A DNA stretch of 64,000 bases, from NCBI GenBank assembly GCA_943789005.1, contig CALSSL010000001.1:576511-640510 (forward strand), given 5' to 3'. Shown one piece after another: positions 26,935-55,818 of this stretch. This DNA comes from an uncultured SAR86 cluster bacterium (GTDB lineage: Bacteria > Pseudomonadota > Gammaproteobacteria > Magnimaribacterales > D2472). Numbering within the stretch: the first letter of the stretch is position 1; every line of letters begins with the position of its first letter. The notes beneath the pieces are model-generated. The model ran no database searches and was not told the origin of the DNA. It saw only the letters and a list, made by a program, of their open reading frames with translations. Position numbers and translations under genes: made by a program.

Positions 26935-26957
26935 CCAAGCCTTCTTAAATAAAAATT

Positions 26958-26978
26958 TACTATTTTAATAAAATAGTA
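26958..26978. repeat. 21-bp inverted repeat TACTATTTTA-A-TAAAATAGTA between P450 and metal operon
   Basis: Read directly: 10-bp perfect arms with 1-nt centre. Confidence 0.85.
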
Positions 26979-26983
26979 TTAAT

Positions 26984-27000
26984 ATACCCCCTATGGGTAT
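26984..27000. promoter_or_regulatory. CsoR/FrmR-type operator ATACCC-CCTAT-GGGTAT
   Basis: Perfect 6-bp inverted arms around a 5-nt centre; G/C block flanked by AT as in CsoR/RcnR/FrmR family operators; a csoR-like gene ends the operon. Confidence 0.75.
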
Positions 27001-27598
27001 GTACCGTTATATTTTATTTTTTTATATAATAGCTTCAATCAATATTGAAGCTAGGCCTATCTCATATTCTGGAGGATCAACATTAATGATGTTTTCAGAT
27101 AATATGAAAGATTCGATCTATTATCACTTTTCACCTACTTATAAATATTCAATTGGAATAGAAAGCGTGAAAGATAATTATTTAAATAATGATTATTCTC
27201 TTTTAAGAGCCACCTACCTAATTAATCGAAAAAATACGCAATATTCCCAAAGAAATTTATATATAAACGCTGGCTTAAGCATTAATGACACAAGTAATAA
27301 TTTTTACGGTATTCATGGTGACTGGGAAACTCGAAGGTGGTTTGTTGGATTTGGGTTTAAGAAGTTAAACAATAAAATTATTGATTATGATCAAAAGCAT
27401 CTTCAACTTGGTGTTGCACCATATCTTGGTGAATACGGTGATTTGCACACCTGGCTGATGATTAAAACAAAAAAGAATTCTTTGAATGATGATTGGTATA
27501 CGTACCCTGTTTTAAAGTTTTTTAAAGGAAATGTTCTCGTTGAGTTTGGTTATAACGATGAAACTGAATGGGACGCTCATTTTATGTATAGATTCTAA
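26999..27598 (+). CDS. Predicted outer-membrane/periplasmic beta-rich protein, first gene of metal operon
   Basis: Signal peptide, alternating beta-like pattern, ends in aromatic MYRF; track start ATG 26993 lies inside the operator, alternative ATG 26999. Confidence 0.75.
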   Translation: MYRYILFFYIIASINIEARPISYSGGSTLMMFSDNMKDSIYYHFSPTYKYSIGIESVKDNYLNNDYSLLRATYLINRKNTQYSQRNLYINAGLSINDTSNNFYGIHGDWETRRWFVGFGFKKLNNKIIDYDQKHLQLGVAPYLGEYGDLHTWLMIKTKKNSLNDDWYTYPVLKFFKGNVLVEFGYNDETEWDAHFMYRF

Positions 27599-27609
27599 GG
27601 AGGAATTTT

Positions 27610-28035
27610 ATGAAACTTATTGGCATTATTTTATTTTTATTTTCATCTTGGATGGTGGCATCAGATCACTCTCATGATCATATGGATCATTCAGATATGA
27701 TGCATCATTCGCATGAGGGTCATGCTCATGAAGAATTGGTTGACGGAGAAAAGCTAGAAGTCAATCCTGAGAGATTTGATAAGTTTGTTGCAAATCTTTC
27801 TAACGCACAAGTCGCTGTAGTAAGTGTGAAGGGGATGGTCTGTGATTTTTGTGCCAGAGGGATTGAGAAGACATTTGAAAAAGATAAAAACGTGAAAAAA
27901 ATTGATGTAGATTTAAGTCAGGGCAAAGTCTTAGTTGCTTTTGATAAAGGCTTTGATATAAATTTTGAGGACATTAAGAAAAAGATTTTGGCCAATGGCC
28001 AAAATGCAACCGGAATGCAAGTTGTATCAATCTAA
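27610..28035 (+). CDS. His-rich periplasmic heavy-metal-associated (HMA, MerP-like) domain protein
   Basis: Signal peptide; SDHSHDHMDHSDMMHHSHEGHAH (9 His); VKGMVCDFCARGIEK CxxC HMA motif; strong SD aaggagg. Confidence 0.9.
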   Translation: MKLIGIILFLFSSWMVASDHSHDHMDHSDMMHHSHEGHAHEELVDGEKLEVNPERFDKFVANLSNAQVAVVSVKGMVCDFCARGIEKTFEKDKNVKKIDVDLSQGKVLVAFDKGFDINFEDIKKKILANGQNATGMQVVSI

Positions 28036-28049
28036 TATTTAAAATAAAG

Positions 28050-28415
28050 ATGAATGATAAAACTACAAATTTCTTGTCACTATTTGCATCGTCATCAACT
28101 TTAATATGTTGTGCATTGCCTGCAATATTTGTTGCAATAGGCGCAGGAGCATCCTTTGCAAGTTTGATAACCGTATTCCCGTTTTTGATAGTTTTATCTC
28201 AATATAAGATTTATATAACCTTATTTGCATTGGTCATGATTTTAATAGCAGGTTATGTAAATTATAAGACGTACCATATGCCATGTCCTGCTGACCCCGA
28301 ACTGGGTAGAATGTGTATGCAAACAAGAAAAAGATCAAGATATTTATATTATTTTTCACTAGTTTTATTTATTTTTGCAACCATTTTTACATACATAGTA
28401 CCGAGGTTAATATGA
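28050..28415 (+). CDS. MerT-like small membrane metal transport protein
   Basis: TLICCALPAIFVAIGAG vicinal Cys-Pro TM motif, second Cys pair PCPADPELGRMC. Confidence 0.7.
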   Translation: MNDKTTNFLSLFASSSTLICCALPAIFVAIGAGASFASLITVFPFLIVLSQYKIYITLFALVMILIAGYVNYKTYHMPCPADPELGRMCMQTRKRSRYLYYFSLVLFIFATIFTYIVPRLI

Positions 28416-28672
28416 ATCATCCGTGTCATAAAGAACAAATTCCTAGCATCAAAAGAATTGAAGGTCAGGTTCGAGGTGTTAGAAGAATGATAGAGTCAGA
28501 AAAATACTGTATCGATATTCTCAACCAGATCAAGGCATTAAAAAATGCAATCTCAACAGTAGAGGGGAAAATCTTAAAAAATCATTTACAGGCCTGTGTA
28601 AAGGATGCCCTTAATGATGAAAAAAATTTTGATGACAAAGTTGAAGAGTTGATGAAAACACTAAAAAGATAA
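28412..28672 (+). CDS. CsoR/FrmR/RcnR-family metal-sensing repressor
   Basis: MNHPCHKEQIPSIKRIEGQVRGVRRMIESEKYCIDILNQIKAL; C33-H58-C62 triad; ATGA overlap with preceding gene. Confidence 0.93.
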   Translation: MNHPCHKEQIPSIKRIEGQVRGVRRMIESEKYCIDILNQIKALKNAISTVEGKILKNHLQACVKDALNDEKNFDDKVEELMKTLKR

Positions 28673-28759: not shown

Positions 28760-28835
28760 TGGTGCCCAGAGGTGGGATCGAACCACCGACACAAGGATTT
28801 TCAGTCCTTTGCTCTACCGACTGAGCTATCTGGGC
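28760..28835 (-). tRNA. tRNA-Phe (GAA), CCA encoded
   Basis: Minus strand GCCCAGATAGCTCAGTCGGTAGAGCAAAGGACTGAAAATCCTTGTGTCGGTGGTTCGATCCCACCTCTGGGCACCA; cloverleaf arms pair. Confidence 0.97.
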
Positions 28836-55206: not shown

Positions 55207-55818
55207 ATGGCAAAAAAATTTACAGTTAGAAAGATTCATAGGTATCTCAGCATCTTTATTGCAATTCAGCTTCTTCTTTGGACAGTCTCAGGAATTTATT
55301 TTGCATTTAACAAAATTGAAATGGTTAGGGGAGAGCAATACAGATTACCTCTAGATACAGAATACAGAATATTTAAAAGACTGGGAGAAGAAATAATAGA
55401 AACTAATGAGAATGGATTAAAAACTTATTTAACTCACCCCGATAAATTGCCAGTCAAAAACTTACTACCCGAAGAAGCAATAACAATAGCTAAAGAAAAA
55501 ACCTCATTAATTCCAATAGAGGTAAGTTTTATTGAAAAAGAAGAAAGAGGAGTAGAGTATAGGGGAAGAAGATTGCCGATATATAAAATCTCAACCGACA
55601 CCAAAGATGGTATTAATATTTATCTTGATCCAATAACTGGTGATATTGCAGCAATTAGATCTGATTCATGGAGAGCGTGGGACCTACTTTGGGCTTTGCA
55701 TATAATGGACTATCAAGACAGAGATAACATAAATAATATTTTGTTAAAAATCTTCTCTGTCCTTGCTTTAATAAGCTCTATTACTGGAATAATTCTTTTC
55801 TTTAAAAAAGCTATTTAA
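55207..55818 (+). CDS. PepSY-domain membrane protein
   Basis: KIHRYLSIFIAIQLLLWTVSGIYFAFNK; INIYLDPITGDIAAIRSDSWRAWDLLWALHIMDY. Confidence 0.85.
   Translation: MAKKFTVRKIHRYLSIFIAIQLLLWTVSGIYFAFNKIEMVRGEQYRLPLDTEYRIFKRLGEEIIETNENGLKTYLTHPDKLPVKNLLPEEAITIAKEKTSLIPIEVSFIEKEERGVEYRGRRLPIYKISTDTKDGINIYLDPITGDIAAIRSDSWRAWDLLWALHIMDYQDRDNINNILLKIFSVLALISSITGIILFFKKAI

Follow-up and report, generated by a model that had tools for sequence, protein, structure and literature searches.

The csoR-copZA and csoR-cueA copper-efflux operons, known from S. lividans and Bradyrhizobium, are among the closest described counterparts of the four-gene cassette analyzed here, with which they share the family of the regulator, the type-2 operator and autoregulation. 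The consensus of the type-2 CsoR operator, TAC-N9-GTA with G/C tracts (PMC3902906), is fitted by the site found in the cassette. In Bradyrhizobium, csoR has been mapped as leaderless, with the operator box lying on its −10 element (PMC5057107), and the same arrangement is predicted for the cassette; another leaderless CsoR-family operon is nre of Mesorhizobium (PMC12724321). The merT-merP genes of mer operons resemble the cassette in encoding a small inner-membrane protein with a vicinal and a second Cys pair, together with a periplasmic HMA partner. The described MerT and MerP proteins move Hg(II) inward. The same combination of MerT-like and CopZ-like parts occurs in the MerT/CopZ fusion (seleno)proteins (NF045683) found with GDCCVxC proteins (e.g. 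on Vibrio plasmids), and one MerT-CopZ relative in Vibrio adjoins copper-resistance genes. Small outer-membrane channels with 12 strands, the number predicted for the first protein of the cassette, include KdgM/NanC, FapF and the intimin barrel.

The cassette, composed of the genes OM, HMA, MT and CsoR (Table 1), lies in the window, i.e. the whole stretch of 64,000 nucleotides that was analyzed, and differs from each of these systems. Unlike csoR-copZA and csoR-cueA, the operon (and the SAR86 genome carrying it) is devoid of a P1B-type ATPase, and its effectors are an inner-membrane MerT-like protein, a periplasmic HMA protein and a predicted outer-membrane barrel. In contrast to merT-merP, it has CsoR in place of MerR, lacks MerA and is always linked to the barrel gene, while the MT protein of the window stays below the Pfam cut-off for MerT. 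The NF045683 systems, unlike the cassette, consist of fused proteins and have neither an outer-membrane barrel nor an adjacent CsoR. Finally, in contrast to the KdgM/NanC-type channels, to which no sequence similarity was found, OM has a predicted lumen of His, Met and acidic residues and is tied to a metal-responsive operon.

Table 1. Positions of the cassette genes, their predicted control elements and neighboring features within the window.
Feature	Positions	Strand	Description
Weak −35-like element TTTACT	26956-26961	+	Read from sequence; 4/6 match; 18-bp spacer
−10 element TAATAT	26980-26985	+	Overlaps the operator
CsoR type-2 operator ATACCCCCTATGGGTAT	26984-27000	+	Predicted; TAC-N9-GTA; overlaps the OM start codon and the −10 box
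OM gene	26993-27598	+	201 aa; signal peptide; predicted 12-stranded outer-membrane beta-barrel; no known family
HMA gene	27610-28035	+	141 aa; periplasmic; His-rich N-terminal segment; GMVCDFC metal-binding loop; PF00403
MT gene	28050-28415	+	121 aa; MerT-like inner-membrane protein; C20-C21 in helix 1, C79/C89 in loop region
CsoR gene	28412-28672	+	86 aa; repressor; Y32-C33-H58-C62-E79 invariant; PF02583
tRNA-Phe gene	28760-28835	-	3′ end facing the cassette; ARAGORN; not part of cassette function
PepSY-type membrane protein gene	~55219-55806		Outside the core of the cassette

The source genome (1.27 Mb, 91% complete) has SCGC AAA168-P09 as its nearest named relative, and its close relatives are mostly labelled SAR86. 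The gene content reported in the preliminary description was recovered as given: four co-directional ORFs, nine His residues ahead of GMVCDFC in the N-terminal segment of HMA, the ICCALP motif plus a second Cys pair (C79/C89) in MT, and C33-H58-C62 in CsoR. The MT and CsoR genes overlap via ATGA. The start of CsoR was assigned to MNHPCH at 28412, which is kept in relatives; a longer ORF of 119 aa begins at an upstream GTG.

Profile searches with each of the proteins placed CsoR (PF02583, Trns_repr_metal; 5.7e-27, 94.4 bits versus a cut-off of 22.8) and HMA (PF00403; 4.6e-7, 30.6 bits versus 24.8) over their Pfam cut-offs and MT (PF02411, MerT; 1.3e-4, 22.4 bits versus 32.9) below it, while OM matched no family. 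The best PDB match of CsoR was the CsoR structure 4adz (9.6e-16). Its Cys-His-Cys ligands and the outer-shell Tyr and Glu (Y32, C33, H58, C62 and E79) are invariant in 19 aligned sequences; the profile, this ligand set and the type-2 operator at the regulated promoter are those of the Cu(I)-sensing CsoR branch. The GMVCDFC loop (GMxCxxC) is invariant in the relatives of HMA, whose closest NCBIfam models are CopZ and whose profile matches comprise HMA domains of Cu-ATPases, CopZ and MerP structures. By sequence, the HMA domain is thus nearest to copper chaperones, closer to CopZ than to MerP. In the cassette form of the protein, H35, H38 and H40 of the His-rich segment are invariant. MT, although below the MerT cut-off, is by its sequence related to MerT: 31 of 40 relatives match the MerT model at E 0.01, and C20, C21, C79 and C89, invariant in 40 sequences, form a vicinal pair in TM1 and a second pair, as in MerT. 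A model of moderate confidence predicted MT helices at residues 3-30, 33-51, 53-75 and 83-120.

The OM protein has no Pfam or NCBIfam family and no PDB match by sequence; judged on this basis, it is a new family, with no counterpart in the libraries searched. An AlphaFold2 model built from 50 sequences (pLDDT 89.1) folded this protein, which the preliminary description had called OM-like, into a predicted 12-stranded barrel, the closure of which was judged solely by fold matches. The top matches found with Foldseek in the PDB were outer-membrane barrels, including FapF, the intimin domain and KdgM, the best TM being approx. 0.5-0.6. A signal peptide (judged by eye), an even number of strands and an aromatic C-terminal residue (the protein ends with RF) are all features of such barrels.

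When the strand residues were split by parity, at least 90% conservation was found at 39 of 66 lumen positions versus 15 of 65 outward ones (p 4e-5). The residues M32, H45, E57, D110, E112, H152, M156, E184, D194, H196 and M198 are all located on the predicted inner face, and the outward strand face of the predicted model carries no conserved H, M, D or E. The two faces were distinguished by hydrophobicity, a choice that biases charged residues toward the inside, but introduces no such bias for methionine or for conservation itself. The model therefore predicts a lumen lined with conserved His, Met and acidic residues.

In 63 of 74 loci, the predicted operator takes the form ATACCCCC(C/T)ATGGGTAT and overlaps the start codon of OM, and the conserved MG(I/M) start of OM results from the fact that these codons form the operator. 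In the Porticoccaceae/SAR92 loci the site is inverted and the ATG stands directly behind it; a cultured carrier, SAR92 H231, has this inverted site together with three of the four genes. The source genome contains exactly one perfect operator (0.04 expected by chance). Within the family, the operator occurs once, at OM, in 31 of the 32 genomes with the cassette, and in 1 of the 75 others; in the remaining cassette genome (G095), the site is probably one base shorter, as it is in locus L072. Among 52 non-redundant loci, the −10 element keeps a fixed place relative to the operator (T at −4 in 45, A at −3 in 51 and T at +1 in all 52), and a T/TTGACA −35 signal peaks 26 bases upstream of it. From this conserved geometry, the transcription start is predicted to coincide with the A of the OM ATG, which would make the mRNA leaderless. 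A single stretch of 17 bp would thus act as a compact switch, combining the operator with the start codon and part of the −10 box.

The sequence data make regulation of the cassette by CsoR well supported. The self-regulation put forward in the preliminary description, with Cu(I) as the signal, gains from the CsoR-type operator found at the head of the cassette and from the invariance of Y32, C33, H58, C62 and E79. The resemblance of MT and HMA to MerT and MerP would also fit a different reading, in which the true substrate sensed by CsoR is mercury or another soft metal (Hg, Ag, Cd, Zn), and the CsoR of Bradyrhizobium does respond to Zn and Cd as well (PMC5057107). We consider this very unlikely: both the operator and the C-H-C ligands are those of a Cu(I) CsoR, HMA is nearer to a copper chaperone than to its mercury-binding counterpart, and none of the 107 family genomes encodes MerA over the cut-off, so that import of Hg would be harmful. 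Matches to MerA below the cut-off, present in 106 of these genomes, are expected of related disulfide oxidoreductases. Mercury resistance as the function of the cassette was rejected on account of the missing MerA. In the source genome, a MerA/lipoamide-dehydrogenase-like gene outside the window (G000:C1:96058-97451) has several in-frame stops, which may be a genuine lesion or an artefact of assembly; it is intact in most relatives.

The distribution of the cassette was analyzed at several taxonomic levels. OM is encoded by 32 of 107 family genomes, all of which also encode HMA, MT and CsoR, i.e. within the SAR86 family the four-gene block is either there or missing as one unit. The few additional single matches were at contig ends (G038 and G062), a CsoR fragment (G057) or a weak match at another locus (G009), and outside the cassette CsoR was matched only by the G057 fragment and by an incomplete second copy of MT-CsoR in G012. 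At the level of the order, 57 of 203 genomes encode OM. All four genes occur in the same order in 76 of 80 named loci, which originate from SAR86, SAR92, Porticoccaceae, OM182, K189A and some Alphaproteobacteria. Two of the four incomplete loci are interrupted by contig ends (L082 and L113), and the other two (L134 and L143) retain OM-HMA-MT and a CsoR-like operator with no neighboring CsoR gene. Conservation of the block order in dozens of genomes indicates that the cassette is more than a chance arrangement. The preliminary description had stated beforehand that it would fail if OM were not conserved with the other three genes; OM proved to occupy the first place in the cassette invariably, and the gene-neighborhood survey bore out the proposed four-gene order.

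The genes flanking the cassette vary from clade to clade. A tRNA-Phe gene whose 3′ end adjoins the cassette, in either orientation, was also observed in L066, L068, L071, L072, L079 and L080, and a tRNA-Arg gene in L119; this frequent adjacency to tRNA 3′ ends resembles an insertion hotspot. A tree built from the concatenated proteins placed the alphaproteobacterial loci L105 and L112 among the SAR86 copies (with modest support of the nearest nodes, 0.78 and 0.81), which suggests, from sequence, exchange of the cassette between lineages. Carriage by plasmids or viruses was not borne out, as OM had no match on plasmids, MT had only distant plasmid relatives and no MT relative was found in viral contigs. 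A Variovorax plasmid (L166, 3630-4306) carries an HMA-MT gene pair, annotated as hypothetical proteins, with no OM and no CsoR.

Further candidate components were considered and rejected. A PepSY protein flanks 23 of the 80 loci, but in the source genome it lies 27 kb away, which places it outside the core. A TonB receptor and MerC were found near some loci only. In the source genome, a TonB receptor gene followed by a MerC-like gene is located outside the window (G000:C1:309805-312298), and both families occur near the cassette in a few SAR86 genomes.

In a class-wide sample, 11 of 369 genomes encode OM, and three distant ones have OM-HMA-MT devoid of both CsoR and the His-rich segment, which implies that the three-gene core is older or wider than its control by CsoR. 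Two of these triplets are preceded, in the same direction, by a gene for a small Cys/His-containing protein of approx. 115-132 aa (L234, 2211-2558; L236, 1036-1434). The association of OM, HMA and MT even without the His tail and CsoR bears on the possibility of a periplasmic buffer alone, in which the His-rich HMA would sequester copper, MT would recharge it and the barrel would be a structural or binding partner, with no export. Such a role would agree with the invariant H35, H38 and H40, and with the lack of an energy source for export. Since the triplet stays together in this reduced form, and since the conserved lumen of the modelled barrel suggests passage or binding within the pore, we regard a pure buffer as distinctly improbable.

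The genomic background of the cassette was examined with respect to other copper-handling genes. No match to the Cu P-type ATPase model (TIGR01511) was obtained in the 107 family genomes, and within the order a single genome of 203 (G156) had a match, whereas 14 of 14 controls were positive. The absence from the other 202 holds with or without the cassette. A CusA-type heavy-metal RND protein scored over the cut-off in only 1 of 107 family genomes. A motif scan of the source genome, at its 91% completeness, revealed neither the DKTGT signature of P-type ATPases nor a multicopper-oxidase motif, and the GMxCxxC motif of HMA was not found a second time. This genome encodes an aa3-type oxidase and an SCO-like protein, which, together with the lack of a recognised exporter, indicates that the cell uses copper and that the cassette is possibly its sole recognisable exporter. 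Approximately two thirds of SAR86 genomes have neither the cassette nor CopA, which shows that the cassette is dispensable.

Copper in the open ocean is scarce and strongly complexed. This, the oxidase and SCO-like protein, and the direction in which MerP and MerT carry Hg(II), would all suit copper uptake or delivery, with the barrel admitting copper, HMA carrying it and MT moving it inward for the supply of cytochrome oxidase or further copper-dependent enzymes. We find this unlikely, because CsoR derepresses at excess and not at scarcity (PMC3902906), and because a cassette that some two thirds of the genomes of the family lack is unlikely to be required for assembling the oxidase.

On balance, we lean toward a Cu(I)-derepressed, ATPase-free relay of MT, HMA and OM that removes or sequesters copper. 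At low cytosolic Cu(I), a CsoR tetramer would occupy the operator, covering the −10 element, the predicted start and the OM start codon, and would block transcription. Excess Cu(I) would bind C33-H58-C62 of CsoR and release the repressor, giving rise to a leaderless polycistronic mRNA. With its Cys pairs, MT could then pick up Cu(I) at the inner membrane for transfer to the CxxC motif of HMA in the periplasm, where the His-rich tail would additionally buffer copper, and the OM barrel may bind copper or let copper, or a copper ligand, out. No ATPase would be involved; the flow could be pulled by copper binding to HMA or to outside ligands. That copper is the metal, that it flows outward and that it is handed over among the three proteins is what we infer, the direction from derepression by excess, the missing exporters and the absence of the cassette from most relatives. 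The earlier choice of uptake, sequestration or efflux is narrowed, by inference only, to the latter two, with uptake kept as a rival.

Several points speak against the relay. By analogy with the described MerT, which imports Hg(II), outward flow would run in the opposite direction and with no evident energy source. The distant triplets (L234-L236), lacking CsoR and the His tail, may indicate a former role of the core different from that proposed. The OM model, moreover, has no close structural match, given its best TM of approx. 0.5-0.6.

The present analysis adds to the preliminary description the operator, the probable leaderless start, the wide distribution of the cassette and the finding that the clade essentially lacks CopA, MerA and CusA. 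No account of the cassette, or of the absence of CopA in SAR86, was found in the open literature searched. All parts except OM are of known kinds; neither the OM family nor this combination of genes turned up in the libraries and papers searched. It is conceivable, if somewhat short of an even chance, that the cassette represents a so far undescribed way of moving copper across the envelope, with no ATPase and with a small outer-membrane copper channel of its own. In streamlined marine bacteria this route would take the place of CopA, and the four genes, together with their regulation, would pass from lineage to lineage as a unit.

In the surface ocean, few bacterial groups are as abundant as SAR86. 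How SAR86-type cells cope with copper without a Cu P-type ATPase is a question to which the cassette offers a concrete, testable answer for approximately a quarter to a third of them. If this answer is true, a dedicated outer-membrane barrel would join the copper-handling repertoire.
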